From an uncultured Bacteroidia bacterium (GTDB taxonomy: Bacteria > Bacteroidota > Bacteroidia > Bacteroidales > UBA932), in NCBI GenBank assembly GCA_902788095.1, contig CADAIT010000001.1:62001-126000 (forward strand): a stretch of 64,000 nt of DNA, read 5' to 3'. Below, in pieces: positions 1 to 46,980 of the stretch. The translations under genes and the position numbers were made by a program. Below the pieces are notes generated by a model. That model was not told the origin of the DNA. It searched no databases and worked only from the letters and a program-made list of their open reading frames with translations. Within the stretch, counting starts at the first letter, position 1. The number at the start of each line of letters is the position of its first letter.

Positions 1-1177
1 CATACAGGTTGAAGTTGTTCAGGGGCTCTACCACGGCATTCACCAGCATGGCAGGGTGCTCCATGTCGGCCACAAAACCGTATCCGGTATTGCCGATGAA
101 GTTCTCGGCGGTCTGGTTGTAGGAGCATCCCCAGCCCGGGCCCAGTTTCCTGTCGTCCGAATACGGCCCCAGAATGGCGCCGCGATTGACGCAGCGGCTT
201 ACGGTTCCCATATTGTATCCGACAAGGCCGCCTTCCCGGCAAGCGGTTTTCACGCTGATATCGCCGTTGTTGGTACATCCCTTGGCGGCGGTGTCGCCGC
301 CCAACAGGCAAGCTGCGTCGGTACGGCCTGCAATGCCGCCCACGAACAGGTTGCTTCCGGACGAGAAACTGCCGTCCAAGGTAATGGACACATTGTTGGT
401 TACCCCTTCCAGAGTGACACCTATAGCCCGACCGACAATGCCGCCAACGGCAATATTGCCGGAAGGTGCGCCTGTGAAGACCACCTTATTGCCGCTTTCG
501 CCTACATTGAGGCGGCGGATGGTAGCCCCATTCACACAACCAAACAGGCCGGCATCCGGGTACTTGGCAAGGTCCACCGTCCAGGAAATGTTCTTGATGG
601 TGAACCGGGAACCATCCACATTGTGTTTCAGCGGAGAAGAAGCCGTGCCGACTGGCACCCATTCCTTGATGGAAGAAGCATCGATGTCGGCGGTGAACTT
701 GACTTCGCCGTCTATCAGGTACTGGTTGATGGAGTATCCGGCCTCGCCATTTACGGCCCGGGCAAAGCCCAGCAGGTCTTCTGCAGAACCGATTCCCCGT
801 TTGACGGTCCCGCTGCCGGCGGCCTGTTTCAGGGTGATTTCGGCCTTCTTTCCGTCCAGCGTGGAAACAGTGACCACACCTGTACGTTCGGCGGTCTCCT
901 TATTTTCCTCTACAGAGACCGTGAGGGTGGAGGCCTGCGTGGAAGAGCCCTTTCCGGAAGCGGTGGACATCTTAATCCATGCAACCGAACTCCGGGCATA
1001 CCAGTCGCTTGAAGACAGGACGGTAAATGCCTTGTTTTCGCCCAGTGCAATCACCTCTGCGGAGGTGGGTGTAACCGTGAATGTCGCCTCCGACGCCGGC
1101 TTCTCTTCCCCGCCGCATGCGACGAGGAAGAGGGCCGAAACCGTCAGAATAACACTTTTAAGCAAATACCTATTCAT
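1..1177 (-). CDS. BACON/GLUG-repeat surface lipoprotein (3' end cut by window edge)
   Basis: Translating the minus strand from 1177 gives MNRYLLKSVILTVSALFLVACG, a lipoprotein signal peptide with its lipobox cysteine near residue 21. A BACON-type beta-sandwich follows at about residues 28-120 (it includes SSSDWYARSS), then GLUG-like repeats from about 140 onward (VGGIVGRAIG, VGGIAGRTDA, EGGLVGYNMG). At least 392 codons are open to the window edge and no stop is seen. The start codon overlaps the stop of the susD gene by 8 nt (ATGAATAG), so translation is probably coupled to it. BACON domains are linked to carbohydrate or mucin binding, and a lipoprotein directly after SusD often acts as a surface glycan-binding protein. 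That role is inference. The frame was read by hand. Confidence 0.8.
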   Translation of the reverse strand, partial: MNRYLLKSVILTVSALFLVACGGEEKPASEATFTVTPTSAEVIALGENKAFTVLSSSDWYARSSVAWIKMSTASGKGSSTQASTLTVSVEENKETAERTGVVTVSTLDGKKAEITLKQAAGSGTVKRGIGSAEDLLGFARAVNGEAGYSINQYLIDGEVKFTADIDASSIKEWVPVGTASSPLKHNVDGSRFTIKNISWTVDLAKYPDAGLFGCVNGATIRRLNVGESGNKVVFTGAPSGNIAVGGIVGRAIGVTLEGVTNNVSITLDGSFSSGSNLFVGGIAGRTDAACLLGGDTAAKGCTNNGDISVKTACREGGLVGYNMGTVSRCVNRGAILGPYSDDRKLGPGWGCSYNQTAENFIGNTGYGFVADMEHPAMLVNAVVEPLNNFNLY

Positions 1178-3011
1178 TGGAAGTAGAATCATAACCGTCA
1201 TTCCAGCCCGGATTCTGCGTCAGGGCGCCACCGGTGATAGAACGCTCGCTAACCGGAATGGGCCACAGGTAGTCGCGGCCTTCCACCCAGTCGTAATCCT
1301 CGCTGGCAAAGTAAGTGAGATAGCCGTGATCCCCTTCGGAAAGTGTATAGTTCGAGCCCAGTTCAATCTGGTTGGTGGCCTTCACGGAAGTGGTGGGTTT
1401 CTCCCCTTCGTACAACAAGATATCCATCTTGCCGTCACCGTCCATGTCAAACTCGCCAAGGCTGGGGAAATAGCAACCGCCAAAACCGCCTACGCTCTTG
1501 GGAGTAAGCCACTTGCCTTCACCCCAGCGCAGCAGGTCCCACTGACGGAAGCCCTCTGCGATGAGTTCTACGGCACGCTCACGGCGAATTTCCAGAATAG
1601 CAGCCTTCTGACTACCCTTGGCATGGGGATAGTATTCCTCCATCAGCGGATCCACGGTGGCGGGAACGGTGCCCATGGCGGGCATGCCCACGCGGGCGCG
1701 GATGACGTCAATGGTAGCAACCACATCGGGGTCGGTAAGTTCTCCCAATTCAGCCTTCGCTTCTGCGTAGTTCAGCAACACCTCGGCATAACGGAAAAGC
1801 GGGTAGTCCGTGGTGGAGGTGGTAGCCGTTTCATGGGAAGAATCGGAAATATATTTGATGATACGATAGCCATTGAAGGTACGGTCAAAGGCCAATTCTT
1901 CGTGTTCAGTACCGTCTAAAGCCTTGTAGGAAGGGCTATGCAGGGTCTGGGCCATACGCGGGTCGCGGTTGGTGAAAGCCTCCTGGTAAGACAGGGTCTC
2001 CCAGCCGGCGCGGTCCTGAATGGGCGTACCGTCGCTCTGCAGGTAATGGTTCACCATGCGGGTGGTGGCACTCATTCTCTTGGATTTGAAGTCGAACTGG
2101 ATGCCGTGACGCACCAGGGCATCCACGCTGTAACGGCGGGAAAGAATGGTTTCGTCCGCTTCTGCATCTTCAAGGATAAAGTATTCGCGATAGCTGGCAT
2201 CCACCGGCTTTCTGGCCAGCCCCATCGTGTTGCCCTTGTACAGGGAACGCTTGCCCAGGAGTTTGCCGGCAGCGTCGACCGCCTCACGGAGGAAATACTC
2301 GGAAGAGATGGTCACATCGTCAAAGGTTTGCTCGTCCTGGGGAACATAAGGCGTACCGGCGTGGTACTTGCGGAAGGTTCCTTCAAACAGGGCGATGCGG
2401 GCCTTCAGGGCCAAAGCGGCATCCTTGGAAACATGATACACCGGCGCGGAAGACCATTTTTCCGGCAACAGTTCATAGGCCTTGTCCAGGTCCTGCATAC
2501 ACTTGAGCATCACATAACCACGCGGGTCACGGGGTTTCTTGAGGTCTTCGGTATCGCCGGAACCAATAACATGGTCGTACCAGGGCATATCGCCGTATAC
2601 CCGCACTTTCTTGTAATAATACAGTGCGCGGAAGAAATAGGCCACGCCGTCGTACATGTTCTTGACGGACACATCCTTACAGCGATTGTTCTCCAACATG
2701 TAATTGATGTCCCTGAGCGGAGCCCAGGTGCCGGAACTCCAGGTGCTGCTGGGATTGCGGGTGCCTTTCTGGATGCCCGACAGGCTGGTTGCGCTTACGA
2801 TGTCATCGGCCGTCAGTTCAGCGATGTCTTCGGCCGAACTGAAGTTCCGTTGATAAAAACGGTTGGTCCAAAGGTCAAGCTCTGCCTTTGAAGAAAAAAA
2901 CGTACCTGGAGACAAATTCGTCTCGGGAGTCTTGGTCAGGAAATCCTGGCAGGACACAGCACCAAAAGCGGCTGCCAGTACAGATATCAAGAGTATAATC
3001 TTCTTTTTCAT
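1170..3011 (-). CDS. RagB/SusD family nutrient-uptake lipoprotein
   Basis: 613 aa. The start MKKKIILLISVLAAAFGAVSC is a lipoprotein signal peptide with the lipobox ending at Cys21. The body has SusD-family features: an early helical repeat region (SSAEDIAELTADDIVS, then YYYKKVRVYGDMPWYD near residues 130-145) and the C-terminal signature region with PLFRYAEVLLNYAEAKAELG and ERAVELIAEGFRQWDLLRW. SusD proteins sit on the outer-membrane surface as a lid over the SusC channel and capture oligomeric substrate. The gene lies 6 nt after susC and overlaps the next lipoprotein gene, so the three are one transcription unit. The substrate cannot be told from this protein alone. Confidence 0.93.
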   Translation of the reverse strand: MKKKIILLISVLAAAFGAVSCQDFLTKTPETNLSPGTFFSSKAELDLWTNRFYQRNFSSAEDIAELTADDIVSATSLSGIQKGTRNPSSTWSSGTWAPLRDINYMLENNRCKDVSVKNMYDGVAYFFRALYYYKKVRVYGDMPWYDHVIGSGDTEDLKKPRDPRGYVMLKCMQDLDKAYELLPEKWSSAPVYHVSKDAALALKARIALFEGTFRKYHAGTPYVPQDEQTFDDVTISSEYFLREAVDAAGKLLGKRSLYKGNTMGLARKPVDASYREYFILEDAEADETILSRRYSVDALVRHGIQFDFKSKRMSATTRMVNHYLQSDGTPIQDRAGWETLSYQEAFTNRDPRMAQTLHSPSYKALDGTEHEELAFDRTFNGYRIIKYISDSSHETATTSTTDYPLFRYAEVLLNYAEAKAELGELTDPDVVATIDVIRARVGMPAMGTVPATVDPLMEEYYPHAKGSQKAAILEIRRERAVELIAEGFRQWDLLRWGEGKWLTPKSVGGFGGCYFPSLGEFDMDGDGKMDILLYEGEKPTTSVKATNQIELGSNYTLSEGDHGYLTYFASEDYDWVEGRDYLWPIPVSERSITGGALTQNPGWNDGYDSTSNE

Positions 3012-3017
3012 AAGCCA

Positions 3018-6000
3018 CTAGAATGTAATGTCCACACCAAAGGAGAATGTTCTGGAATAAGGATAAGTGATGTCTCGCGTATCGCCTCCGGCAGTTGCCA
3101 CCTCCGGATCCACGTACTTGGAAATCTTGGTGAGCGGAGACAGATAGAACAGATTCTCACCGGAGAAGTAGAAACGCACTTTCTCCACCACCTTGTTCTT
3201 CTTCAGCGGGAGCGTATAGCCCACGGTGAGGTTTTTCAGACGCAGATAGGCTGCGTTCTGCAGATAGTAGTCGTTTGTCTTGTAGTTGGCAATCAGACGG
3301 CCCCTCATGCGCGGGAAATACGCTTTGGAGTTGTCAGCACCCTCGGCCGGATCCCAGCACAGGGTCTCGAATCCCTTGGGAATGAAGGAGGGACGCTGGT
3401 AGCCGTAAGGGCCCCAGAAATAGCTGCTGTAGGCACTTGGAGCCCAGTCCAGCTTGCCTACCCCCTGGAAGAAGATGCTGATGTCCAGACCGGCCCAGCT
3501 GAAGTCCGTCTTGAGGGCATAGTTGTAACGCGGACGGCTGTTGCCGATGACTTCGCGGTCACCGGGATCGTCCAGGGTGTTCTTGCCGGTGTTGATGGTA
3601 CCGGACCCGTCCAGGTCCTTGTACTTTAAGTCACCGGCCATCAGGTGGTTATACGGAGCCGCAGAATTGTAAATGTCGGCATTCACCACTTTGGAGTCGA
3701 TCGCCGCCTCATAGGCTGCAGCCTCTTCGTCGGTAGCAAAGAAACCGTCCGTACGATAGCCCCAGATATCACCCAGGCGCTTGCCCACAAAGTGGTCACT
3801 GATGAGTTTGTCGGGGTTTTCGTAACGGGTAATGTAGCTCACATTGTCGCCCAGGGTGGCAGTAACACCATAGTAGAGCGGTTTGCCGGCCACCATCACA
3901 TTGTCTTTCCAGCTCAGGGCCAGCTCATAACCATAAGTGCGCAGGTCGGCCGCATTCTCCTTCGGGGCATCGGCGCCATACACAGAAGGGAGGGTCATGG
4001 CCGTTGTGAGCATGTTCTTGGTGTCACGGATGAAAAAGTCGGCGTTCAACGTGAGGCGGTTGCGGAAGAAGCCCAAATCCAGGCCGATATTCTTGGAAAT
4101 CACGGTTTCCCAGGTCAGGTTGCTGGAAACAGGAGCCGAGACATAGGCATAGTCCGCCTTTTTATTGTCAAAGGTATAAGAAAGCGGCTCGGTGGATATT
4201 TTGTCCCAGTAGTAGTAGTTGCTCACCTGCTGGTTGCCCAGAGTACCATAAGACAAACGAAGTTTCGCATTGGATACTACAGGACGAATTTTCTCCCAGA
4301 AGGGTTCCTCGGAGATTCTCCAACCGGCCGATGCGGAAGGGAAGAAGCCCCAGCGGTGACCCTTGGGGAAACGGGAGGAGCCGTCGTAACGGCCGCTCAG
4401 TTCCAGGAGGTAGCGGCCCTTCCAGTCGTAGTTGACACGGGCGAAGAAGCCCAGCGTCCGGTAGGCGGAATTGGATCCCTCAAGGGCTTCAATGCCCACC
4501 AGGTGACCCTCTTCGTCCTTCTTGGCCGCAGTTATGTCGATATAGGAAAGGGTTTCACTGAGGGAGCCCGCCTGCTTTACGGTGAGCTGGGTGGAATGAT
4601 AGTCGTCGTAGTTGGCACCCAGGGTAGCCGCCAGGTGGTGACCGTTTCCGAAGGTATTGTCATAGGAGAAGTAGGCATTGGCCACGCTGCCGTCCTGCAT
4701 ATAGCGGACCTCCTGGTAGAAGTCGTACACGGAGCCGTTGGAGAAGTTGCCGCCCGTAAGGCCGTTACCTTCGTACATGCGTTTGTTCACGTTGTCGTAG
4801 GAATTGGCGGTGGGAACGCTGCGGTAGCCGGCAATGCGGTCTCTGCGGCGATAAGTGTAGTCGGCAATGAACTTGAGGCCCTTCACAATATCGATCGTGA
4901 AACGGTTGGTCCAGGTCCAATAGTTATTGGTATTGGAATTGTGGTTGCGTCCGTCCATGAATACGCCGCCGCGGCCGCTCATGAGCGGAGAGGTGGCTTC
5001 GGCCATGAAACCGGGGACCATGGCAATGGTGCCGTCCGGGTTGAACGGGACCAGATTGGGGCCCACATTCTGGGTGATGTTCCACATGATACCCTGACCG
5101 GCAGAGTTTTGCGTTTTGTTCAGCTGGGTACTGCCGTCCAGTTCCCAGAAACCTCCCCAGTCATATTTGGTGCGCTCCAGGGAAACGTTGGTGGAATACG
5201 TGAGCCAATTGGTAATCTTGGCGTCCAGTTTGGTACGCAGGGAGGCGCCGTTGTAGGTGTCCTGAGCCAAGCCGCCAAAGAAACCGTTTCTCCAGAGCCA
5301 ACGGCCTGAGGCATAGTATTTTACCTTATCGTTACCGCCACGGACGGCAACATTGTGCTCGGTCTCGGGACGCACCTTGTTGAACAGGTAGTTGTACCAG
5401 TCGAAGTTGCCCAGGTACACATAAGTGTTGGTTCCGGTCGCATCAGGCACCACCCAGGGGCGCTCGGGGTTCTCGGTGACGTCGTTCCGGCGCTCGTAGA
5501 GCATCTGCATCTGTTCGGAGGAATAGGTCCAGGCGCCGTACCCTTTGAAGGTCTCGTAGAACTTATTGGTGAGACTTACGTAGTCGTAACCGCTGGTGAT
5601 GAAGTCCGTAGAGGTGGTGTTGTCGGAGATGGAGAAACGGCCGTTGTACGTAACGCGGGCCTTTCCCTCGCTACCGCTCTTGGTAGTGATGAGAATCACG
5701 CCTGCCGATGCCTTGGCACCATAAATGGCGCAGGCAGATGCATCTTTGAGCACAGAGATGCTCTCAATGTCGTTGGGATTCACCAGGGTAAGGGAGCTCT
5801 CGATACCGTCCACCAGGATGAGCGGGGAACCGCTGTTGATGGAGAGTTTACCGCGGATGTTCACGCTGTAGTTGGTACCGTCGATGGAACCGGAAGAAGT
5901 GGTAAGCACCAGTGAAGGGTCGGCGCCCTGCAGGGCCATGGCCGTGTTGGTGACAGGACGGGAGTTGAGTTCCTTGCCGTCAATGACGGACACGGCACCG

Positions 6001-6350
6001 GTGAGGTTTACCCTTTTCTGGGTACCGTAACCCACCACTACAAGCTCTTCCAGGACATTGTCGCTTTCCAGGACAACGGAAAGAGGCATGGGCTCCGTAC
6101 CGGTGAGATGCAGCACTTTGTCGGCCATCCCCATGAAGGAGACAGTGATTTGAGCGGGATAGCTGACGTTGCCGATGGAGAATGCGCCGTCGGCGTCTGT
6201 CAGTGCATACTGAGTAGTTCCGGTCACCTGGACGGAAGCCCCGATAAGGGGCTCCCCGTCGGTGTCCGTCACCACGCCGCGGAGGCTGCTCTGCGCCAGC
6301 GCAACGGCCGGGATGAGCAGCACGAGGAATGCTAATAGAAATCGTTTCAT
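3018..6350 (-). CDS. SusC/RagA family TonB-dependent outer-membrane transporter (no STN domain)
   Basis: 1110 aa. A cleavable signal peptide (MKRFLLAFLVLLIPAVALAQ) is followed by a carboxypeptidase-regulatory-like beta-sandwich at about residues 22-95 (LRGVVTDTDGEPLIGASVQV). The TonB-dependent plug is at about 100-230 (LEELVVVGYGTQKR, ESISVLKDASACAIYGAKAS, GVILITTKSG), and the rest is a beta-barrel ending in FSFGVDITF, a typical aromatic-terminated last strand. It lacks an N-terminal STN domain, unlike the SusC at 42163-45459, so it is not expected to signal to a FecR. It pairs with the SusD gene 6 nt downstream and is preceded by two GLUG lipoprotein genes in the same direction. Confidence 0.95.
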   Translation of the reverse strand: MKRFLLAFLVLLIPAVALAQSSLRGVVTDTDGEPLIGASVQVTGTTQYALTDADGAFSIGNVSYPAQITVSFMGMADKVLHLTGTEPMPLSVVLESDNVLEELVVVGYGTQKRVNLTGAVSVIDGKELNSRPVTNTAMALQGADPSLVLTTSSGSIDGTNYSVNIRGKLSINSGSPLILVDGIESSLTLVNPNDIESISVLKDASACAIYGAKASAGVILITTKSGSEGKARVTYNGRFSISDNTTSTDFITSGYDYVSLTNKFYETFKGYGAWTYSSEQMQMLYERRNDVTENPERPWVVPDATGTNTYVYLGNFDWYNYLFNKVRPETEHNVAVRGGNDKVKYYASGRWLWRNGFFGGLAQDTYNGASLRTKLDAKITNWLTYSTNVSLERTKYDWGGFWELDGSTQLNKTQNSAGQGIMWNITQNVGPNLVPFNPDGTIAMVPGFMAEATSPLMSGRGGVFMDGRNHNSNTNNYWTWTNRFTIDIVKGLKFIADYTYRRRDRIAGYRSVPTANSYDNVNKRMYEGNGLTGGNFSNGSVYDFYQEVRYMQDGSVANAYFSYDNTFGNGHHLAATLGANYDDYHSTQLTVKQAGSLSETLSYIDITAAKKDEEGHLVGIEALEGSNSAYRTLGFFARVNYDWKGRYLLELSGRYDGSSRFPKGHRWGFFPSASAGWRISEEPFWEKIRPVVSNAKLRLSYGTLGNQQVSNYYYWDKISTEPLSYTFDNKKADYAYVSAPVSSNLTWETVISKNIGLDLGFFRNRLTLNADFFIRDTKNMLTTAMTLPSVYGADAPKENAADLRTYGYELALSWKDNVMVAGKPLYYGVTATLGDNVSYITRYENPDKLISDHFVGKRLGDIWGYRTDGFFATDEEAAAYEAAIDSKVVNADIYNSAAPYNHLMAGDLKYKDLDGSGTINTGKNTLDDPGDREVIGNSRPRYNYALKTDFSWAGLDISIFFQGVGKLDWAPSAYSSYFWGPYGYQRPSFIPKGFETLCWDPAEGADNSKAYFPRMRGRLIANYKTNDYYLQNAAYLRLKNLTVGYTLPLKKNKVVEKVRFYFSGENLFYLSPLTKISKYVDPEVATAGGDTRDITYPYSRTFSFGVDITF

Positions 6351-6368
6351 CGAATAAATTTTATGTTA

Positions 6369-8930
6369 TTATTTGTAGTATTCTTCACCAAGAGCAATCA
6401 AAGCCCCCGGAACAGGATAATCCACCCCGGCAGGGATGGCCCAGCCAAGAGCTGAAGTATAAGTAGATCCAACCGTCAACGAGAAATTATTACCATTGAA
6501 TGTCGTACATGTACCGCTGCTCTTGATGTCAACCGCTGTTTTCTGTTCATAATTAGCCTTCACTGTGCCTGTGGAAATGTCAGACGAATCGCCTGCGACA
6601 AAATAATCAAAGCGAAGCTCCGCCTTATTGCTGACCACACCAACGAATCCGCCCTTCTTGGCAGACCCGGGGACAGAACTCACCAGCGTATAAGAATTTC
6701 TGATACGGGCACGGTTGCTGTTTGAAGCATCACCGGTAATCCAGCCTGCAAAACCGCCTACATATTCTCCACCGGCAGTTATGGTTACATCCAGGACACC
6801 ACAGTTGTCAATCGCGACATACTGTCCTGCCGTCGTGGTTATATTACCTACAGCACCACCTGTTCGGCAAGCATTGGAAGTGCGTTCTGTAGTTACGTTC
6901 ATGTTGGCCAGACAGTCATAAACGTAGGTTCTGGAGGAGGCATGATTATTATTGAGCTGGATAAACCCGGTCAGTCCCCCGACATCATAGGTCGATGTTT
7001 TTACAGTACCTTCTGCATAGCACACACTCACGACATTTCCATTCTGTAATTTGCCGGCTATACCGCCCACGCAATTGGCCGAGCCCGTGATGTCCGCGCT
7101 ATTTCTGCAGGAGGTGATAAAGCAAATATTTGTTTCGGTTCCATTATTAGTGGTCGATCCGGAGAAACCGACAATTCCTCCTACCATCGAGGTCCCGGTC
7201 ACATTGCCTGTATTTACACAAGAAAGAATGGTTCCCTTGGCCAAGTTTCCGGCAATGCCGCCAGTCTGATTGACTAGAGAATTGGTTACCACAGCGCCAT
7301 TGGTGCAGCCATTTACCTCACCAGTGCTGTCGAACTTGCCAACAATACCGCCACGGGCAACTCCCGAAGCGGTTCCGGTAAACTGTATGGTTCCGGAAGT
7401 AGCGCAGGACTTGATGGAGGAGTTTTCGCCGGCATATCCTACTACACCGCCCTGGTTGTTCGCATCAGCGCCACTATCTGCAGTGGTGACAATAATATTT
7501 TTTACACTGCAATCCTTTACCGTTGCATCGCCTTTGACATGGGCGATGAAGCCTACGGAATTGCGGCCGGTAACCTGTCCGCCCTCGAGCGAACAGTTCT
7601 CAATCGTTGTCGTACCGATGCAGCGTCCGGTAAGGATGCCGGTAGTATTGGTTCCGGTTACAGCGGCATTGGCTACCTTGATATTTTTAAGTGTGGCATT
7701 GTTCACATAGGCGAAAAGGCCCACACTGTCATCTACATCACCGGAGACAGTGAATTTCTCCAGTTTTTTGTTGTTGCCGTCGTACGTTCCCTGGAAAGGG
7801 GTAGCGTCGGCAAGCATAGCGTTATAGATGCCAATGGAGGGAAGCGCCTCATTACCAAAGTCGATATCGGCAGTCTGCTTGTAATAAACAGCCGTGGAAC
7901 CGAAGAAGGTTCCTTCTCCGGAGACGCCGCCTTCCGTGGGGAAGGTGCTCTCCATCTTGGTCTTGATGGCCTTGAAGTCGTCGGCCGTAGCAATCAGGTA
8001 GGGATTGGCCTCGGAGCCGTCGCCACCGGAAAAGAAGCCCTTGGCCTTGAAATTCATGTGCTTGCGCATGCTGCGGGTGACAGTCATCGCAGAGTTGCGG
8101 GTCTTGAACTCGAAGGGCTCATATTCCACGGAACCGACTGTTTTTCCGTACACCAGTTTTACGGTCATGGCGTCAAACTCATCCGTTCCGGTAACCGGCA
8201 GGAAGAAATAGACACTCTTGGGCGTAGATGAAAGCGTAACGGGTGCAGCCAGCTCGCAGGTTACGAATTTGTTTCCGTCCAAAGCGCCGATGGAAGGGAT
8301 CCCTTCAGAGAAACTGACCGTGGCAGAGCCCGTAATATAGACCTCTGAGTTGCTCAGTTCCACCTTTGTAAGGGTTTCTCCCTGGGCATTGTCCGTATAG
8401 GCACGGATCTCGTAGATGGCACCCAGATTCTTGAGCTCAATGCTGGTCTCGGCGGTGGCATCGGCAGGGACGACGGCGGCCATCGGGTTCATGATGCCCG
8501 TCAGGGATTCGAAGGCGGCGGGCATGGTGAACTGCACATGGTCGGTATCCCAGACAAAGTTGCCGGCCGGGAAGAACACGTGCATGGGGTTGCCGTTTTT
8601 CTCCAGCGGTTCCGCCACCGGCTCAAACTTGGTTTCTACCGCATTGTATGCATAGAGGGCCGTCTCACCGTCGGAACGGATAATTTTCACCTGGTCTCCA
8701 TCGGTCCAGGACAGGCTGCCGCTGACATCATCCAGATCGGCCTTGGTCGCTTCCATGTCCGCACCGAAGCCGGTCAGGTACTTGACCGGATCGTATTCAA
8801 CCGTCTCTTCCGGAACTTTCTCCTCCGGAACAACAGGACGGGGATCTTCATTCGCCTGTTCTTTATTGCAGGCAACGCCCAATACGGCAAGCAGCGCCGT
8901 AAAAGCGACAAATCTCATAATCTTTTTCAT
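6369..8930 (-). CDS. Fimbrillin-like/GLUG-repeat surface lipoprotein
   Basis: 853 aa. The signal peptide is MKKIMRFVAFTALLAVLGVAC with the lipobox at Cys21. Residues about 45-300 form a fimbrillin-like module (DPVKYLTGFGADMEATKAD, SLSWTDGDQVKI, then MHVFFPAGNFVW), closely related in layout to the N-termini of the three lipoproteins upstream. From about 330 to 840 the protein is a string of GLUG-type repeats, each with a pattern like GGIVGxxxxSxxxxCxNxGxV (examples: VGGIVGFSGST, GGIAGNLAKGTIL, GGIAGKLQNGNVV). Such repeats are expected to build an elongated beta-helix. No catalytic domain is seen, so a binding or structural role at the cell surface is likely. It follows a 45-aa peptide gene after 6 nt and precedes susC. 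Confidence 0.87.
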   Translation of the reverse strand: MKKIMRFVAFTALLAVLGVACNKEQANEDPRPVVPEEKVPEETVEYDPVKYLTGFGADMEATKADLDDVSGSLSWTDGDQVKIIRSDGETALYAYNAVETKFEPVAEPLEKNGNPMHVFFPAGNFVWDTDHVQFTMPAAFESLTGIMNPMAAVVPADATAETSIELKNLGAIYEIRAYTDNAQGETLTKVELSNSEVYITGSATVSFSEGIPSIGALDGNKFVTCELAAPVTLSSTPKSVYFFLPVTGTDEFDAMTVKLVYGKTVGSVEYEPFEFKTRNSAMTVTRSMRKHMNFKAKGFFSGGDGSEANPYLIATADDFKAIKTKMESTFPTEGGVSGEGTFFGSTAVYYKQTADIDFGNEALPSIGIYNAMLADATPFQGTYDGNNKKLEKFTVSGDVDDSVGLFAYVNNATLKNIKVANAAVTGTNTTGILTGRCIGTTTIENCSLEGGQVTGRNSVGFIAHVKGDATVKDCSVKNIIVTTADSGADANNQGGVVGYAGENSSIKSCATSGTIQFTGTASGVARGGIVGKFDSTGEVNGCTNGAVVTNSLVNQTGGIAGNLAKGTILSCVNTGNVTGTSMVGGIVGFSGSTTNNGTETNICFITSCRNSADITGSANCVGGIAGKLQNGNVVSVCYAEGTVKTSTYDVGGLTGFIQLNNNHASSRTYVYDCLANMNVTTERTSNACRTGGAVGNITTTAGQYVAIDNCGVLDVTITAGGEYVGGFAGWITGDASNSNRARIRNSYTLVSSVPGSAKKGGFVGVVSNKAELRFDYFVAGDSSDISTGTVKANYEQKTAVDIKSSGTCTTFNGNNFSLTVGSTYTSALGWAIPAGVDYPVPGALIALGEEYYK

Positions 8931-8936
8931 AGCCTG

Positions 8937-9074
8937 CTACCAGTTAGAATCATCATCTTCGGAGTTGCCGTAGCCTTCTCCGCTAAAAACATGTTTTCTG
9001 GAGCCCGAAAGAAGGGTACTCTCAGTCTGCACCGAAACGGGCTCGCAGAGAGGAGTCATGTATATTTTTTTCAT
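8937..9074 (-). CDS. Small peptide (45 aa) preceding a fimbrillin-like lipoprotein
   Basis: Read by hand from the minus strand: 45 codons starting MKKIYMTPLCEPVSVQTEST, then LLSGSRKHVF and an acidic/glycine-rich tail ending DDDSNW. It shares a layout with the small peptides at 11320-11478 and 33088-33243: a charged start, Tyr, a nearby Pro, a glutamate-containing stretch, then a hydrophobic pair followed by a small-residue Ser motif (LLSGS, ILAGS, LICAS), then a variable tail. Its stop is 6 nt before the next lipoprotein start. No signal peptide or known domain is visible. Function unknown; the pattern resembles a leader-plus-cargo peptide, but that is inference. Confidence 0.7.
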   Translation of the reverse strand: MKKIYMTPLCEPVSVQTESTLLSGSRKHVFSGEGYGNSEDDDSNW

Positions 9075-9098
9075 GCTTGTTTTCCTATGTTTAGAGGT

Positions 9099-11318: not shown

Positions 11319-11319
11319 A

Positions 11320-11478
11320 CTAGATCAACCCTCCCCAATTCATGAAGTCATCACTCAGAATGTCAAGAGGATCCACGTTGGATTCCAATCCGGTTGAGCC
11401 GGCAAGAATCTGCTGGGGCCCCATCAGTTTCAGGGTCTCGGCCGTCGGAGCCAGATAAAGTTCTTTCTCTGTTTTCAT
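11320..11478 (-). CDS. Small peptide (52 aa) preceding a fimbrillin-like lipoprotein
   Basis: Read by hand from the minus strand: MKTEKELYLAPTAETLKLMG, then PQQILAGSTGLESNVD and a tail ending DDFMNWGGLI. It has the Tyr-x-x-Pro start and the hydrophobic-Ala-Gly-Ser motif (ILAGS) that the 45-aa and 51-aa peptides share. Both this peptide and the 45-aa one end in an acidic tail with a late Asn-Trp. It lies 38 nt after the fimbrillin/EEP gene and 1 nt before the next lipoprotein gene. No known family can be assigned by eye. Confidence 0.7.
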   Translation of the reverse strand: MKTEKELYLAPTAETLKLMGPQQILAGSTGLESNVDPLDILSDDFMNWGGLI

Positions 11479-11516
11479 GGTGTTATGTGATTTTGGTTGT
11501 TAATAGTTATTTCATG

Positions 11517-14750: not shown

Positions 14751-14753
14751 AAA

Positions 14754-33070: not shown

Positions 33071-33087
33071 TGTGCGTCCTCCCATCA

Positions 33088-39885: not shown

Positions 39886-40845
39886 TTACGGTTCATTGAC
39901 GGTTACCATCCAGGTGTTGACGACAGGGCGCTGGGCACCGTCGGAAGCACGGTTGCGGAGTTGATAGATATTGGCCGATGGATGACGGATCACCAATTGT
40001 GCGCTGCCGCCGCCGTCCAGGTTGGAAGCCCAGCTGCAGCCCAGGCTCTTCATTATTTCACCCATCTCCCAATAAAGCATGCCGTCTGACCAGAGCGCCT
40101 GGCGGCCGTCTACGATCATAAAGAACAGGGTATTCCCGTCCTCGGTATATCCTACGACATTACGGGGATGACGGTTGGTGGAATAACCGGAGAAGTCGCC
40201 CGGGACCTCACCGTTGCTCAGGACAATTACGCCGCTGCCTGTCACATCCCTGAGATCCGATGCCATTTGACGGTAGGTGACGGTATCGCGGATAACCGGC
40301 TTCCCGTCGAAATCCAGGCCGAAGAAACTGATGGCCTGATCGGTCAGGGTGGGAGAATACACAAAGGTATTCTTGAGGACACGACCGTTTCTGTGGATGG
40401 GGCCGCGGATCTTTCCGTTGGACGTATCCCAGAAGTCGGCGTTTACCACGGCGACCACGCGACGTCCGGGCTTGTCCACATATTCAATCATGTCGGAAGG
40501 GGTCTGGCGGCTGCCGATTACATAGGAATCCAAATCATACGGCATTCCCACCTTCATTTTCACGCCAGGCGTATTCAGTTTGATGCGCAGGATGAAAACG
40601 TGCTCCACTTTTGCCAGTGAAGTCTGCAGATGGATATCCGTTTCGTCCACGCCGGCAGCGATCATGAAAGTCGTGTCGGCATAGACATGACCTACCGAGG
40701 CGGCCAGTGCCACCTGTTTTCCCAATTCCGTCCTGGGGACATAGGAGGTATCCGGAATATCTTCCGGTCCGGCAGGCAGTTTCTTGCAGGCCAGGACTGA
40801 CGGCAGCAGCAAGAGAGTCAGCAGTATATATGTTTTCTTCTTCAT
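39886..40845 (-). CDS. Phosphodiester glycosidase-family (NAGPA) lipoprotein
   Basis: 319 aa from MKKKTYILLTLLLLPSVLAC (lipobox Cys20). A start 12 codons earlier falls inside susD and lacks the signal, so it is rejected. The domain has RRVVAVVNADFWD, GVIVLSNGEVPGD, VVGYTEDGNTLFFMIVDGRQ and SWASNLDGGGSAQLVI. The last two match the NAGPA/exopolysaccharide glycosidase signature (Val-Asp-Gly-Arg and Asn-Leu-Asp-Gly-Gly-Gly-Ser). Family members cleave N-acetylglucosamine from a phosphodiester bond. In this locus it strengthens the case that the substrate carries phosphodiester-linked sugars. It begins 4 nt after susD. Confidence 0.87.
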   Translation of the reverse strand: MKKKTYILLTLLLLPSVLACKKLPAGPEDIPDTSYVPRTELGKQVALAASVGHVYADTTFMIAAGVDETDIHLQTSLAKVEHVFILRIKLNTPGVKMKVGMPYDLDSYVIGSRQTPSDMIEYVDKPGRRVVAVVNADFWDTSNGKIRGPIHRNGRVLKNTFVYSPTLTDQAISFFGLDFDGKPVIRDTVTYRQMASDLRDVTGSGVIVLSNGEVPGDFSGYSTNRHPRNVVGYTEDGNTLFFMIVDGRQALWSDGMLYWEMGEIMKSLGCSWASNLDGGGSAQLVIRHPSANIYQLRNRASDGAQRPVVNTWMVTVNEP

Positions 40846-40849
40846 AAGG

Positions 40850-42157
40850 CTATTCCTCCTCATTGTTATTGGGTGTTGCAACCCAGAGTGGGTTCTGTTT
40901 CAGCAGTTTGTTCAGGGTGAGTTCACGGGAAGGGATGGGCTGTACACTATACTTGTGGTCTACGCCCACTACCTTCTCGTACTTCCCGGTACGAACCAGA
41001 TCGAACCAACGGAATCCCTCACCAAACAGTTCCAGACGGCGCTCATTCAGGACAGCGTCCAGAAAAGCATCCTCATTGGCCGGTGACACATCGGGCAGGC
41101 CGCGGAAGCGTCTGAGTTCATTCAGACGGTCGATTCCCAGGGCAAGCCCCTTTCCTTCGGCACTGATCAGATACATCTCGGCGAGACGGGTGATATAGAT
41201 AGGATCGTGACCGGCATCGCCCATGCAGTATTTGTTTACTACATTGTTGCTGCCCTGGATATCTACAGACACCGTACGGCGCTTGTCAATGTGCTGGAAC
41301 ATGTCCATGGCCTCCTGCGTGGGGCAGAAAGTATAGCTGCCGCCCACCGGGGATTCCTTCGTATAATAATACGAGCCGATATTGTAGCTTCCCTCCTCCA
41401 GAAGGTTGGAGAAAGTGAAAATCTCTTCCTTGTTGGCCACACCGCGGAAGATATCCGTGAAATCGGCCAGTGCGAAACGGCCGCAGGTAATCAGTTCTTC
41501 GGCCAGTTCCGCGGCTTCGGCTTTCCTGCCCATGGCCAAATAGGTTCGGGCCAGAAGAGCCTTTGCAGCATCCTTGGACACGTAATTCTTGGTGGTGAAA
41601 TCGGGAGCCAGCTTCACGGCCTGCTGGAATTCAGATTCGACGAATTTCCAGGCATCGGCCTCCGGAGTCTGGGCAATATCCTCGGTGATAATCTTGTCCA
41701 CGATGGGAACGTCTCTCCAGCGGGCCACGATATTGTAGTAGTACAGGCCCCTGAAGAAATGGCCCACGCCCAGCATCTCGTTTTTCTTAACCGATTCCGG
41801 CAGTTTCTCGATGGAACGGATGAAGTTGTTGATCTGATACATGCCGGCATAGTAACCATTCCAAGGTCCGCCAACCATAGAGTTGTCAGGGCCGATGGCA
41901 CCTTGAATCACCAGAGCCGGTGTATTGGTAGATGTAGCACCCGGGCGGATGAGGTCACCGCCGATGATGTCAAACATGGCCCAGCCGTTGAATGTAGGTT
42001 TATACTGGGCAATGTTGTATACGCCAACCATCAGCATTTCGGCATCGTCTTCCGTAAGATTGTCACTGGAGACGGCATTATGCGGATACTGGTCCAGAAA
42101 CTTGCCACAAGAAACCAGGGCCAGTGCTGCTGCAATAATATAAATATACTTTTTCAT
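40850..42157 (-). CDS. RagB/SusD family nutrient-uptake lipoprotein
   Basis: 435 aa, signal MKKYIYIIAAALALVSC (lipobox Cys17). SusD-type features include KFLDQYPHNAVSSDNLTEDD at the mature start, the TPR-like GVGHFFRGLYYYNIVARWRD, YVSKDAAKALLARTYLAMGR, and the C-terminal IYITRLAEMYLISAEGKGLA and ERRLELFGEGFRWFDLVRTG. It is shorter than the SusD at 1170-3011 and not closely similar. It forms a surface lid with the SusC encoded 5 nt upstream. Confidence 0.94.
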   Translation of the reverse strand: MKKYIYIIAAALALVSCGKFLDQYPHNAVSSDNLTEDDAEMLMVGVYNIAQYKPTFNGWAMFDIIGGDLIRPGATSTNTPALVIQGAIGPDNSMVGGPWNGYYAGMYQINNFIRSIEKLPESVKKNEMLGVGHFFRGLYYYNIVARWRDVPIVDKIITEDIAQTPEADAWKFVESEFQQAVKLAPDFTTKNYVSKDAAKALLARTYLAMGRKAEAAELAEELITCGRFALADFTDIFRGVANKEEIFTFSNLLEEGSYNIGSYYYTKESPVGGSYTFCPTQEAMDMFQHIDKRRTVSVDIQGSNNVVNKYCMGDAGHDPIYITRLAEMYLISAEGKGLALGIDRLNELRRFRGLPDVSPANEDAFLDAVLNERRLELFGEGFRWFDLVRTGKYEKVVGVDHKYSVQPIPSRELTLNKLLKQNPLWVATPNNNEEE

Positions 42158-42162: not shown

Positions 42163-45100
42163 TCAGAATTTAAGATTGACGCCGAAGGTAAAAGAGCGGG
42201 GCTGGGGAATCCACATGCAGTCCAGGCCCATCTTGGTAGCATCCAGCGAGGTGTTCACCTCCGGATCCAGGAAACGGAATGGAGCCAGCAGCCACACATT
42301 GTCACCCTGGACATAGACACGCAGTTTTTCAACACCAATCCGCTTGGTCAGGTTTGCAGGAAGGGTATAACCCACGGTGACCGTACGCAGACGCAGATAG
42401 GAAGCGTCGTGAAGGAAGCGCGTGTTTTTGAACATGGTGGAGTTCCAGGTGTATCCATAAATGGCACGGGGCGTGGTATTGGTAGTTCCGGGACCGGTCC
42501 AGCGGGCCAGGGCTTCGGATTCCTGGGCAGGCCAGTTACCGTTACCCAGACGAAGGCCACCCGTCCAGTACTCATACAGTTTGGCACCGTACGAGAAAGT
42601 GAAGAAAATATTGAAATCGAAACCCTTATAGGTAAAGGAGTTATTCAGACCACCCGTGAATTTAGGGTTGGCCGATCCGACGAACTGGCTGTCATAGGCG
42701 CTGCTGATATCGCCGTCGGGCTCGCCATTGGGGCCGGAAACATCTTCATAGATGCAGTCACCGGCACGGACGCCGTAATTGTCGCGCAGATAAGTGGGGA
42801 CCTCATCATCGCTTTGATAGATGCCGGTCATCTTGATCATATAGAAGCTTCCCACTTCCTCACCAACTTTCAAGGCGTGATAGTCATCCGTCCTCAGAAT
42901 CTCATCCTCTCCGATAAGTCCAGTGAGACGGTTGCGGACGAAGGAAATGTTGAAATCACCTTTCCAGTGGAAGTCGTGCTTGCCAAGGTTTCCGCCGATG
43001 GCGAATTCGAGACCCTTATTGCGCATGGAGCCAATATTGCAGGTATAATTGGTAAAACCAGTGGTAGCTGCAGTAGGCTTGGAGTATAGCAGATTGCGGG
43101 TATCTTTCAAGAATGCATCGGCCGTAATGGTAAGGGCGCCGGAGAAGAATGAAAGATCTGTGCCGATATCATACTGGTCAGCCTTTTCCCATTCGAGGTC
43201 GCGGTTGCCCTGCGTCATCACAGCCAGACCGTTCTTGTTCATGTAATTGTAACCGCCGTTTGCCAGCGACTGGTAGGCATAGCTGCCGATACCGCCCTGG
43301 TTACCGGTGGCGCCGTAACTCACGCGGAGCTTGGCATTGGTTCCGGTGAATGTCCAGAAAGGTTCTTCGGTAATGTTCCAACCCAGTGAAACGGACGGGA
43401 AGAAACCGTAACGATGTTCCGGGGCGAACTTAGACGAACCATCATATCGGGCGTTCACAGTTGCCAGATAACGATTCTTCCAGTTAACGGTAGTGCGGAA
43501 CATAAAGGACTGCAGGCCCCAGGAGGAAAGGCCAGAGGTAACTTCCGGGAATTCTGCTGCAACGGAGTTCACGTCAAAGGACTTGGAGGGGAAACCCTGG
43601 CCCTTCTGGCGGGCAGTGGAATTATTATCCAACTGGAAGGAATGGCCCAGCATGACGTCCAACGAGAGGCCATCGAATGCATGGCTGTAGTCGAGGATGT
43701 TGTCTACGACGATGGACGTGAAGTTTTTGCGGGAATCGATGAGCACGCCTACAGAGTTGCCGTACATGTGCTCGGCAGAATACTGCACATGGTCTTCGGC
43801 TGCCATAAAGTCGCCACCGAAACTTGTCTTGAAATGCAGATCCTTGGAGAAATTCAGGCGGACAAAAGCGTTCCCGTACATACGGTAGCTTTTGTTGTAT
43901 ACATTCTGTTCATTGATAGCCTGGACAAGGTTGTAGTGAAGGAGCTCGGCATTGATGATGGTATAAGAGCCGTCCGGTTTGAAGGGAGTATCCCAAGGGC
44001 GGTGCTCAAGGCCATGCGTCAACATGGATGTGCCGATATTGCCATCGGGCACACGGTTGGCGTTGGTATAACTGAAATTCAATGAAGCACCCACGGAAAG
44101 CCAGGGACGTACATCGCTGTTGACATTGGCTTTAATGCCGTATTTCTGGTACAGGCTCCCCATGCCCACACCTTCATTCTGTTTGGCGTTGGCAGAAATA
44201 TAATAATTGCTGTTTTCGGAACCTCCGGAAACCGAAATATTGGTACTCCAGCTCTTGGCTACACGGAACACCATGTCCAGCCAGCTGAATTGCGGTTTGC
44301 CGGGATACGGATTCTCCAGACGGGCGATAGAACTGCCGGTCTGCATATTGTAATTGTCGATGGCCTCATTCTGCACTTCCAGGTACAGGTCGGCGTCTGC
44401 CACCTTCAGCTTGGAAAGGTTGGGCAGGTAACTCAGGCCGAAAGTTGCATCGGCCGACAGCTTGGGAGCGCCTTTCGCACCTTTCTTGGTGGTGATAATA
44501 ATGACGCCGTTGGTACCGCGGGAACCATAGATGGCCGCCGATGCGGCATCCTTCAGCACCTGCACCGATTCGATATCGGCAGGATTGATATCGGAAAGGC
44601 CGGTAAGGGATTCACCTCCCCATGCGCCGGTATCACCCGAGGTATTGCTCATGGGAACACCGTCAATCACATAGAGGGGTTCGTTTCCGGCAGTCAGGGA
44701 GCCGATACCACGGATACTCACACGGCTTTTTCCACCCGGGGTGCCGGAGGCCGCCGTCACATTTACACCGGGCACACGGCCCTGCAGCATGGCATCGGGA
44801 CTCAGCACCTGACGCTCGCCTTCCTCGGCCGGCTTATATGTTGCGATGGCCGATGTGATATCCCGGCGCTGCATGCTGCCGTAACCCACAACAACGGATT
44901 CTTCCAGCAGCGTGATATCATCCGACAGCATGATAATGAAGCCATCTGTCCGGGAGCCCAATGGAAAACGGACTTCCTTGTATCCCAGCATGCTCACAAG
45001 AAGGACATCGCCTTTCTGAGCCTGAATGGAAAAGGAGCCGTCGTTGTCGGACATGGCGACAGCCGACATACCTTCCACCTGAATAACGGCGCCGATGACA

Positions 45101-45459
45101 GGGCCATCTTTATCCTGGACCTTTCCCGAATAAACCTTCACTGCGCCCTTCTCTTTCTTGACAATCAGAATAATCTTGTCTTTGATACGGGCTTCACAAT
45201 TGGTTCCTTCCAGAAGGGAGGCCAGGACCTGCGAGAGTCTCTTTCCACTGGGAGCTGTTACTACTTTTTTCAGATCCAGCAGATTCTCATTGTATGCGAT
45301 GGAATAGCCGCTTTGCTGTTCAACTGCCGACAACGCTCCGGAAAGGGTCAGGCGACTTTTGGAAAAGTTGATGACCGGTTCCTCCTGCGCTTGGAGCAGG
45401 TTAGGGATGAGCAGGCCTATCAGCAGCATACAACATGTAAGCATAATAGTCTTTCTCAT
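42163..45459 (-). CDS. SusC/RagA family TonB-dependent transporter with STN signalling domain
   Basis: 1098 aa. After the signal peptide (cleavage near LLQAQ) an STN domain spans about 30-98 (FSKSRLTLSGALSAVEQQSG, LASLLEGTNCEARIKDKIIL). A carboxypeptidase-regulatory-like domain is at about 105-185, the plug at about 190-320 (LLEESVVVGYGSMQRRD, DGVPMSNTSGDTG, GTNGVIIITTKKG), and the barrel ends SFTFGVNLKF. STN domains touch the periplasmic part of FecR-type anti-sigma factors, and a FecR gene lies 36 nt upstream, so ligand uptake probably triggers expression of this locus. It is the main transporter of region 3. Confidence 0.95.
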   Translation of the reverse strand: MRKTIMLTCCMLLIGLLIPNLLQAQEEPVINFSKSRLTLSGALSAVEQQSGYSIAYNENLLDLKKVVTAPSGKRLSQVLASLLEGTNCEARIKDKIILIVKKEKGAVKVYSGKVQDKDGPVIGAVIQVEGMSAVAMSDNDGSFSIQAQKGDVLLVSMLGYKEVRFPLGSRTDGFIIMLSDDITLLEESVVVGYGSMQRRDITSAIATYKPAEEGERQVLSPDAMLQGRVPGVNVTAASGTPGGKSRVSIRGIGSLTAGNEPLYVIDGVPMSNTSGDTGAWGGESLTGLSDINPADIESVQVLKDAASAAIYGSRGTNGVIIITTKKGAKGAPKLSADATFGLSYLPNLSKLKVADADLYLEVQNEAIDNYNMQTGSSIARLENPYPGKPQFSWLDMVFRVAKSWSTNISVSGGSENSNYYISANAKQNEGVGMGSLYQKYGIKANVNSDVRPWLSVGASLNFSYTNANRVPDGNIGTSMLTHGLEHRPWDTPFKPDGSYTIINAELLHYNLVQAINEQNVYNKSYRMYGNAFVRLNFSKDLHFKTSFGGDFMAAEDHVQYSAEHMYGNSVGVLIDSRKNFTSIVVDNILDYSHAFDGLSLDVMLGHSFQLDNNSTARQKGQGFPSKSFDVNSVAAEFPEVTSGLSSWGLQSFMFRTTVNWKNRYLATVNARYDGSSKFAPEHRYGFFPSVSLGWNITEEPFWTFTGTNAKLRVSYGATGNQGGIGSYAYQSLANGGYNYMNKNGLAVMTQGNRDLEWEKADQYDIGTDLSFFSGALTITADAFLKDTRNLLYSKPTAATTGFTNYTCNIGSMRNKGLEFAIGGNLGKHDFHWKGDFNISFVRNRLTGLIGEDEILRTDDYHALKVGEEVGSFYMIKMTGIYQSDDEVPTYLRDNYGVRAGDCIYEDVSGPNGEPDGDISSAYDSQFVGSANPKFTGGLNNSFTYKGFDFNIFFTFSYGAKLYEYWTGGLRLGNGNWPAQESEALARWTGPGTTNTTPRAIYGYTWNSTMFKNTRFLHDASYLRLRTVTVGYTLPANLTKRIGVEKLRVYVQGDNVWLLAPFRFLDPEVNTSLDATKMGLDCMWIPQPRSFTFGVNLKF

Positions 45460-45495: not shown

Positions 45496-46404
45496 TTAAC
45501 GGATGTAAATGGCATCATCAGTGCGGCTGTACCGCATGGACGGGACTACCGAACATATGGCGTCCAGCAATTCGTCCACGGTTTCTCCGTGGATAAAGCG
45601 TGCGCTGATCCTGGCCTTGTCATATTTGGAGGTGGTCAGGTAAACCTGGACGCCATAGTGGCGCTGGATAATCCTGATAATCTCATGGATAGACTCCGAA
45701 TGGAAACAAAGATTGCCCCCTTCCCAGGACATGGATTCAGAGGAATTGGCACGCCCATGGACAAGGGCGCCGGTGGAACGCTCCAGAGCGCAGTACTGTT
45801 CCGGCTCCAGTTCCACCACCCTTTCAGGCGCGTTCTTCGGCCAGGCCGCGATGGCGCCCCTGTTCAGGGTTGCGGTAACCATGGGATCGTCGAAATAGGC
45901 TTTCACATCAAAGCGGGTCCCATGCACCTTCACCACCAGGTCGGAGGTCTGCACATAAAAAGCATCCTCCTCAGAAGCAGTCACATCGAAAATAGCCTCC
46001 CCGGAAAGGAACACCGTGCGTTCCGATTGGAAAGTCTCCGGATAAATGAGTACCGACTGTGCATTCAACAGGACACGGGAATGGTCGGGAAGAATAACCT
46101 CGGCGGTTTCTCCGCAAGATGTGGAACGCTGGATATAATTGACGGCTGCGACCTGGTTCTGCGGCGCAGTACGGCGTGCATAGCGGACAGAAAAGACCGG
46201 TACCAGAATCAGGGCACAGACAGCCGCAACCGAGAAGATGACTCGGAGGTACTTTGTCCTGCGGATGCTCCGTTCCCTGGCAAGATAGGCTTCCAACGTC
46301 CGGGAGCGCTTCATCACCTCTTCAAAAGCGGCGTCCAGTTCCTCCGAAGACATGGAAAACGGTTCAATCTGATCCCACCCCGGGAAATGATCGAAAGGTG
46401 TCAT
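45496..46404 (-). CDS. FecR-family anti-sigma factor
   Basis: 302 aa. The N-terminal cytoplasmic part (about 1-48) would hold the sigma factor. A single membrane helix is at about 50-70 (LRVIFSVAAVCALILVPVF). The periplasmic FecR domain follows at about 95-205 (TSCGETAEVILPDHSRVLLN, FLSGEAIFDVTASEEDAFYV, VKVHGTRFDVKAYFDD), then a C-terminal DUF4974-like STN-contact region (SIHEIIRIIQRHYGVQVYLT). It should sequester the ECF sigma encoded just upstream until the STN domain of SusC signals. A terminator at 46432-46452 lies between the two genes. Confidence 0.93.
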   Translation of the reverse strand: MTPFDHFPGWDQIEPFSMSSEELDAAFEEVMKRSRTLEAYLARERSIRRTKYLRVIFSVAAVCALILVPVFSVRYARRTAPQNQVAAVNYIQRSTSCGETAEVILPDHSRVLLNAQSVLIYPETFQSERTVFLSGEAIFDVTASEEDAFYVQTSDLVVKVHGTRFDVKAYFDDPMVTATLNRGAIAAWPKNAPERVVELEPEQYCALERSTGALVHGRANSSESMSWEGGNLCFHSESIHEIIRIIQRHYGVQVYLTTSKYDKARISARFIHGETVDELLDAICSVVPSMRYSRTDDAIYIR

Positions 46405-46431: not shown

Positions 46432-46452
46432 AAAAAAGGGGCGTCAGCCCCT
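46432..46452 (-). terminator. Intrinsic terminator between the ECF sigma and fecR genes
   Basis: The minus strand reads AGGGGC, loop TGAC, GCCCCT, then TTTTT (46436-46432), 7 nt after the sigma stop. It is likely to limit transcription into fecR-susCD. Confidence 0.85.
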
Positions 46453-46458
46453 AAGAGA

Positions 46459-46980
46459 TTATAGAAAAAAAGCGATGCATGAAGTGATTTTACGCAATTC
46501 CTTCAGTGCAGCATTGATGTGATTCTCCACGGTTTTCTTGGAAATCCCCAGCTCTGCAGAGATCTCATCGTTGCTTTTCCCCTGTTTTCTGGACATGAGA
46601 AAGACCTGTTTCCGCTTCTGAGGCATCCGTTCCACCATACGGTCTATCTGATACTGGCGTTCGCGCGCAAAGTATTCTTCATCCAAATCATAGGATTGGG
46701 AGTCGTCGGTATGCTCTTCCAACGGAATCTTGACTTTATAGGTGCGGCCATAATCGATGGCGGCATTCCGGCACATCCGATAGAGATAGGCGCCAAGAGA
46801 ACGGATCTTGCCCAAAGATGAGCGGATGAGCCAGATTTTTACAAACAGATTCTGCGCAAGGTCCTTCGCCTCGTTTTCATCCTGAATAAGCGCAAGGAGA
46901 AATGATACGGCTTTGGGATAATAGTATTCGAACAGTTTCCGGAAGGATTCTTCATCCCCCTGGGAGAGCCGTTCAATCAT
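46459..46980 (-). CDS. ECF RNA polymerase sigma factor (FecI-like)
   Basis: 173 aa from MIERLSQGDEESFRKLFEYY. Region 2 is at about 10-75 (ALIQDENEAKDLAQNLFVKI) and region 4 at about 115-165 (RMPQKRKQVFLMSRKQGKSN, then DEISAELGISKKTVENHINA). An ATG seven codons upstream (47001) lies only 5 nt from the TAACTTTG promoter box, so it would be at or before the transcript start. GAAGGAAAG just before 46980 supports the later start. The factor should direct transcription of the SusCD locus when released from FecR. Confidence 0.93.
   Translation of the reverse strand: MIERLSQGDEESFRKLFEYYYPKAVSFLLALIQDENEAKDLAQNLFVKIWLIRSSLGKIRSLGAYLYRMCRNAAIDYGRTYKVKIPLEEHTDDSQSYDLDEEYFARERQYQIDRMVERMPQKRKQVFLMSRKQGKSNDEISAELGISKKTVENHINAALKELRKITSCIAFFL

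Follow-up and report, generated by a model that had tools for sequence, protein, structure and literature searches.

The window analysed here, a stretch of 64,000 nucleotides from an uncultured rumen Bacteroidia bacterium of the Bacteroidales lineage UBA932 (positions 62,001 to 126,000 of contig CADAIT010000001.1, assembly GCA_902788095.1), contains two SusCD loci in which the SusC and SusD genes are accompanied by several phosphodiester-cleaving families and an OPA-type transporter. The interpretation that we favour, with modest confidence, is that these two related SusCD systems take up and dismantle a phosphodiester-containing glycoconjugate and import a phosphorylated piece of it, probably for carbon. 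It draws on which genes are present and how they are conserved, on catalytic and phosphate-site residues that are intact, and on linkage of the genes across the genus. The source genome (2.16 Mb in 28 contigs) is 83% complete, and further genes may therefore be missing from the counts given below; the named records nearest to it are for the most part Bacteroidales metagenome-assembled genomes (MAGs) from rumen and gut. Families in both loci were called with Pfam and, for some proteins, with our own hidden Markov models (HMMs) built from genes of the window, and protein locations were taken from lipoboxes or from signal peptides read by eye.

Both loci lie on the minus strand, contain adjacent SusC and SusD genes, and share a core comprising SusC, SusD, a NAGPA protein, two EEP proteins and an OPA transporter. 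A preceding sequence-only reading had described two SusCD loci with phosphodiester-cleaving families and an OPA importer, and every family that it named was recovered by Pfam or structure matches. The NAGPA, second EEP and OPA of locus 1 were missed because the window ends inside this locus, which extends approximately 5.2 kb beyond the left edge, its last four genes being mostly outside. In locus 2, the core comprises a NAGPA lipoprotein (39886-40881; 115 bits), the true start of which may be an internal ATG; an EEP lipoprotein of the EEPa family with the signature WNIQNGMW (35901-36848); a fimbrillin-like and NHL lipoprotein with a C-terminal EEP domain of the EEPb family (33265-35898; PF03372 at 2.2e-10 and 41.1 bits, motifs present), which is related to the mannosyl-6-phosphatase 4c1r (4.9e-17); and an OPA-type organophosphate transporter (26771-28033; Pfam MFS). 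The EEPa protein scores 18.8 bits, below the Pfam cut-off, and a high-confidence structure model nevertheless predicts an EEP fold. In locus 1, the GDPD and EEP fusion of the earlier description correspond to a lipoprotein with GDPD and DUF4996 domains (18906-19874; 3i10 at 5e-55) and a fimbrillin-like lipoprotein with a C-terminal EEPa domain (11517-14750; PF03372 at 24.7 bits, cut-off 24.5), the latter being 37% identical to the locus-2 EEP. The NAGPA domain of this locus forms the C-terminal part, outside the window, of an 827-aa BACON lipoprotein (L004:16718-19201), only the N-terminal part of which is found at positions 1-1201 (open reading frame (ORF) 2-1201), and it is followed outside the window by an EEP lipoprotein (L004:14148-15107) and the OPA gene (L004:12770-14143).

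The sequence features expected of these enzymes are intact. The residues N-E-H-D-N-D-H, which we take to be the catalytic set of EEP proteins, were invariant in all 49 EEP domains compared. The NAGPA proteins passed the Pfam cut-off, contain the DGGGS motif and match the known fold, with a predicted local distance difference test score of only 64.5 for the locus-1 model; on Pfam, motif and fold they are predicted phosphodiester glycosidases. They resemble NAGPA/DUF2233 phosphodiester glycosidases (3ohg and the vertebrate uncovering enzyme 6pkg) in sequence and fold, but differ in being lipoproteins in uptake loci, and the bond that they cleave is a prediction. The GDPD also passed its Pfam cut-off and carries the HR, PENS and HD motifs. 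In loose motif tests that took in homologues, some of these failed one of the six EEPb motifs (two of five sequences) or one of the four GDPD motifs (one of five).

The OPA proteins of the two loci are 52% identical to one another. The locus-2 MFS protein is homologous to GlpT (1pw4, 3.6e-51) and SLC37A4, and equivalents of GlpT R45, K80, H165 and R269, the phosphate-site residues in the usual numbering, were kept in 11 of 11 OPAs compared from EEPa loci (approximately seven distinct) as well as in the GlpT-like protein of the same genome. Unlike GlpT, UhpT and SLC37 antiporters, which they resemble in homology and in these conserved residues, the locus OPAs are carried in SusCD loci and score far below the cut-offs of the glpT, uhpT and pgtP models. 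Their scores with the glpT model TIGR00712 were 216 and 197 bits (cut-off 632.55), compared with 558 bits for the genome's best GlpT match, located on C3 next to genes for a glycerol kinase and an MIP channel; because this match is itself under the cut-off, the gap between the scores is more telling than the cut-off. Given this poor match of the locus OPAs to GlpT, the imported compound is no less likely to be a sugar phosphate than glycerol phosphate. The import of an organophosphate proposed in the sequence-only reading accords with the retained residues, whereas its glycerol phosphate option is weakened. A core paralogue on C17 (L128:7649-9001), the one such paralogue read, is 43-48% identical to both locus OPAs, and its kind is present in many genomes of the genus; Q and P replace R269 and H165, respectively, in this protein, which may have a substrate other than organophosphates.

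Linkage was examined in 61 genomes of the genus, the neighbourhood being defined as 15 kb on the same strand. NAGPA was found in 48 of these genomes, EEPa in 28 (E 1e-10), DUF4996-type GDPD in 27 and OPA-like proteins, among the matches listed, in 57. The OPAs listed were classified into a locus type (at least 630 bits, n=24) and core paralogues (450-522 bits, n=34), and other OPA matches were dropped. Among the matches listed, 13 of 24 locus-type OPAs but none of the 34 core paralogues lie near NAGPA, EEPa or GDPD (Fisher P 7.9e-7). Two of the 13 belong to the source genome itself, and another, from G037, comes from a cassette that nearly duplicates locus 2; when the genome's own two are left out, 11 of the 22 listed are linked. 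Four OPAs are located directly downstream of GDPD, and GDPD stands beside OPA in four genomes.

In a separate survey, 110 distinct EEPa proteins were compared, each 97% cluster being represented by its best-annotated member; these are proteins rather than loci, as some loci hold two, and at least two are EEPb cross-matches. Of the 110, 51 have a same-strand SusC or SusD no more than 12 kb away, and among these NAGPA is present in 21, EEPb in 17 and OPA in 12. In a 198-genome sample of the order, EEPa was detected at E 1e-60 or better, a stricter threshold than in the genus search, in three genomes, one of which is the source genome. At L044, L065 and L110, EEPa belongs to SusCD loci that encode BACON and DUF5689 proteins and that showed neither NAGPA nor OPA in the stretch examined, which suggests a separate EEPa system. 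At L016:5142-11056, on the same contig as L102, EEPa adjoins a protein that resembles type I phosphodiesterases/nucleotide pyrophosphatases, with a sensor kinase upstream, and no OPA was found in the stretch examined.

In total, seven EEP (one under the family cut-off), three NAGPA and three GDPD proteins and, among the matches listed, four OPAs were identified in the source genome. Nine of these 17 matches fall in C1:56773-107001, which accounts for 2.3% of the genome (binomial P 4e-11, for a region chosen post hoc and with operon neighbours that are not independent). The genome has approximately 14 SusD genes (15 matches, two probably being pieces of one gene), and the other 12 have no EEP, GDPD or, among the matches listed, OPA within 15 kb on the contig; one has NAGPA within this distance. 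The unusual load of phosphoesterase families noted in the sequence-only reading is therefore a real property of this region. The third NAGPA of the genome lies in a SusCD locus (L005, G000:C3:90001-110000, positions 3434-17716) with DUF5018, two GHL10+DUF4985 proteins, BACON, a cyclophilin and a metallophosphatase, and neither EEPa nor OPA was seen there.

The cassettes are conserved in related genomes and are also reassembled. L054, 69-76% identical to locus 2 at the DNA level, keeps every module from FecR to OPA, and L058 (71-73%) keeps the cassette with the OPA split into two ORFs. L009 and L058 are from the same contig with the split OPA, and the same genome carries another OPA beside EEPb (L168, GxDLY-OPA-EEPb-GH97+GDSL). 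A contig assigned to a Fibrobacter MAG (L049) is 99.7% identical to locus 2 and probably mis-binned. Cassettes of similar order in L078 and L122 have no NAGPA within the 21 kb examined and have GDPD preceding OPA, in effect a swap of NAGPA for GDPD. The OPA gene of both runs off the end of the stretch, and its product shares 83-85% identity with the locus-1 type, likewise accompanied by GDPD. In L022, the genes matching those of L078 and L122 in size and place encode BACON and DUF5689 proteins, and L094 has a locus-2-type OPA (77%) and no GDPD in the stretch examined. L157, in the order SusC-SusD-GLUG-GLUG-NAGPA-GDSL-OPA-NAGPA-EEP, offers the same functions with another EEP, one that neither EEP model used matched, and the order in L153 (5993-11817) is GH31-GDPD-OPA-aldo/keto reductase. 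L154 and L156 likewise contain cassettes of GDPD, OPA and a 276-aa protein, the last being the aldo/keto reductase in L153; an alpha-glycosyl glycerophosphate or a related compound is a possible substrate of these cassettes. Given such frequent recombination and the persistent company of OPA, the simplest reading is that the genes serve a single type of chemistry. The loci are a real, conserved and recombining module, a variant of SusCD uptake loci.

The remaining genes differ between the two loci. Locus 2 begins with a FecI-type ECF sigma factor (46459-47001) and a FecR-type anti-sigma factor (45496-46404), which precede a SusC with an N-terminal STN signalling domain (42163-45459) and SusD (40850-42157; Pfam). 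Between NAGPA and the EEP lipoprotein are a three-IPT/TIG and NHL lipoprotein (38093-39883) and an IPT/TIG and NHL lipoprotein (36845-38089), both putative surface binding proteins identified by Pfam and carrying lipoboxes. Downstream of the EEPb fusion lie a fimbrillin-like and NHL-type lipoprotein (31181-33106; lipobox, no Pfam match, identified by our own HMM), an SGNH esterase with GxDLY and GDSL_3 domains (30025-31107; Pfam, motifs), the GH3 glycosidase already named in the sequence-only reading (28040-30028; Pfam) and OPA. Locus 1, from its 5' end, consists of GDPD, a GLUG-type and DUF4886 lipoprotein (14754-18887; PF16227 at 2e-27, GNSFT and DGYH motifs), the EEP fusion, a fimbrillin-like and GLUG-type lipoprotein (9099-11318; lipobox, no Pfam match, own HMM), a second fimbrillin-like and GLUG-type protein (6369-8930; own HMM, GLUG match weak and below the cut-off), SusC (3018-6350; Plug and TonB_dep_Rec), SusD (1170-3011; PF07980 at 1.9e-42), the BACON and NAGPA protein, a BACON/GLUG protein (L004:15104-16705; Pfam, lipobox), the EEP lipoprotein and OPA. 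DUF4886 is presumably SGNH-like, and on that footing an SGNH protein is present in both loci, as had been claimed. No dedicated regulator was seen among the locus 1 genes scanned. The approximately 6.9 kb between the loci include a class-II aldolase gene and a formate/nitrite-transporter-type gene.

We infer the following scheme, in which the locations come from signal sequences and the bonds cut, the use for carbon and the induction are likewise deduced. The NAGPA, both EEP, GDPD, IPT/NHL and BACON/GLUG proteins carry a lipobox and are probably on the cell surface, and the SGNH and GH3 proteins of locus 2 are, by their signal peptides, probably periplasmic. These signals fit surface cutting, uptake by SusCD, periplasmic trimming and import across the inner membrane. 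NAGPA and EEP, with GDPD in locus 1, would cleave glycosyl-1-phosphate or glycerol/sugar phosphodiester bonds at the surface, where the IPT/NHL or BACON/GLUG proteins are likely binders, and SusCD would bring in the cut pieces. In locus 2, the SGNH esterase would then strip acyl groups and GH3 glycosyl groups, and the OPA antiporter would move the phosphorylated product to the cytoplasm. OPA antiporters exchange organophosphate for phosphate, with no net gain of phosphorus, and the import therefore probably serves carbon rather than phosphorus. Locus 2 is likely induced by its substrate via STN-SusC, FecR and the ECF sigma factor. The uptake of a phosphodiester-linked glycan proposed in the sequence-only reading gains from the linkage across the genus, the intact residues and the fitting signal sequences; the teichoic-acid-like polymer that it put forward is one candidate among several. 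We tentatively favour such a polymer of Gram-positive neighbours as the single best candidate, at clearly less than even chances. Judged from the protein families, teichoic-acid-like polymers would suit the gene set best, because NAGPA suits glycosyl-1-phosphate links, GDPD glycerophosphodiesters, GH3, GH31 and GH97 glycosyl substituents, and SGNH proteins ester groups.

Several observations weigh against this interpretation. The activities and substrates of the NAGPA, EEP, GDPD and OPA proteins are predicted from their families, EEPs can be phosphatases or nucleases, and no polymer-specific gene was identified. No glycosidase was found in locus 1 by Pfam, and the low glpT scores of the locus OPAs belong here as well. 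Among the matches listed, 11 of the 24 locus-type OPAs have neither NAGPA nor EEPa nor GDPD nearby; four of the 11 (L162, L164, L166 and L168), examined afterwards, neighbour EEPb or GxDLY. Linkage between the enzymes is partial in the genus: EEPa is near NAGPA in 15 of 61 rows (from 63, two EEPa genes that are in pieces being counted once each), NAGPA is near EEPa in 11 of 117, and DUF4996-type GDPD is near EEPa, NAGPA or a locus-type OPA in 10 of 31. In the survey of distinct proteins, 59 of the 110 EEPa proteins, some on short contigs, lack any same-strand SusC or SusD up to 12 kb away, and in Alistipes (L067) EEPa is found among purine-synthesis genes. The EEPa structure model is closest to ExoIII, APE1 and LINE-1 nucleases, although likeness in fold does not settle the EEPa substrate.

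The main rival, which we consider unlikely but of some weight, is phosphate scavenging, in which SusCD would import organic phosphorus, phosphoesterases would free phosphate, and the system would respond to low phosphate. In Parabacteroides faecis (L064:8430-13197, SusC called as two ORFs) and a Parabacteroides MAG (L069:8402-13158), EEPa lies within an arrangement of SusC, SusD, EEPa and polyphosphate kinase that resembles phosphate-utilisation clusters. In the report on Flavobacterium johnsoniae, the Pus clusters combine SusCD-like pairs with adjoining phosphodiesterases or phosphatases, are all described as induced by phosphate depletion, and in one case include a Ppk-like protein, as in the Parabacteroides EEPa loci; two are described as unlike polysaccharide utilisation loci (PULs) bearing carbohydrate-active enzymes (PMC8115612). 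This parallel implies that EEPa may serve phosphorus scavenging elsewhere. The loci of the window differ from the Pus clusters described there in carrying GH3, SGNH, NAGPA, OPA and an ECF-sigma/FecR switch, and they were not classed as Pus, for which an absence of CAZy-type enzymes would be expected: GH3 is present in locus 2, and none was found in locus 1. The OPA-phosphate exchange would add no net phosphorus, no phosphate transporter or Pho regulator was found among the genes scanned in either locus, and locus 2 combines its GH3 and SGNH esterase with the STN-SusC/FecR/ECF-sigma set, which is typical of substrate induction. Somewhat less probable still are ordinary glycan PULs, in which OPA would be incidental, with EEP and NAGPA either serving minor phosphate decorations or having shifted to a different chemistry. 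NAGPA is common in the genus (48 of 61 genomes) and often stands apart from the other genes, and EEPa, EEPb, OPA or GDPD occurred at none of 19 hand-picked NAGPA loci out of 106 rows away from EEPa, but three other such loci do have OPA (G028, G034 and G035). EEPb resembles 4c1r, which presumably acts on a decoration of mannan, whereas the repeated occurrence of OPA near NAGPA, EEPa or GDPD, its intact phosphate-site residues and the reassembly in other gene orders speak against an incidental role.

Two further explanations appear improbable. EEP families include phospholipid- and inositol-acting enzymes, and with GDPD beside OPA in four genomes the substrate might be a phospholipid or inositol-phosphate head group (a glycerophosphodiester or glycosyl-inositol-phosphate) rather than a polymer; we regard this as very unlikely, as NAGPA, GH3 and the multi-domain binding proteins point to a glycan. 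The lowest probability is assigned to nucleic-acid scavenging with EEPa as an extracellular nuclease. The nuclease-like fold of the model leaves DNA or RNA possible for EEPa alone, but no nucleoside transporter, nucleotidase or second nuclease family was found among the genes scanned in either locus, and NAGPA, GH3, SGNH and OPA are present.

Among known systems, the yeast-mannan PULs of Bacteroides thetaiotaomicron carry an EEP mannosyl-6-phosphatase (PDB 4c1r), which we take to be BT3783, a locus tag that no paper found in the open-licence literature names. The EEPb protein is a relative of this enzyme inside a SusCD locus, but no mannosidase was found by Pfam in either locus, and NAGPA, OPA and EEPa are additional here. 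A search of titles and the beginnings of abstracts in the open-licence literature found no paper on NAGPA, EEP or OPA in SusCD loci or on PULs for teichoic acids, and a report on SusE-like enzymes (PMC8211771) is not relevant to these loci.

PULs are usually read as sugar systems, with phosphate disregarded. If a phosphodiester-containing glycoconjugate is the substrate, the loci would point to the rumen organisms that recycle polymers such as teichoic acids or phosphomannans, and SusCD with NAGPA or GDPD, EEP and OPA would serve as a marker set for finding such systems elsewhere. Phosphoesterases that accompany SusCD for carbon harvest would thereby be told apart from those that serve phosphorus scavenging. 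It is conceivable, and we offer it as a conjecture, that rumen Bacteroidales possess a distinct class of loci for harvesting teichoic-acid-like polymers, in which sugar- or polyol-phosphate units enter still phosphorylated via OPA and the NAGPA, GDPD and EEP modules are swapped to match the polymer.

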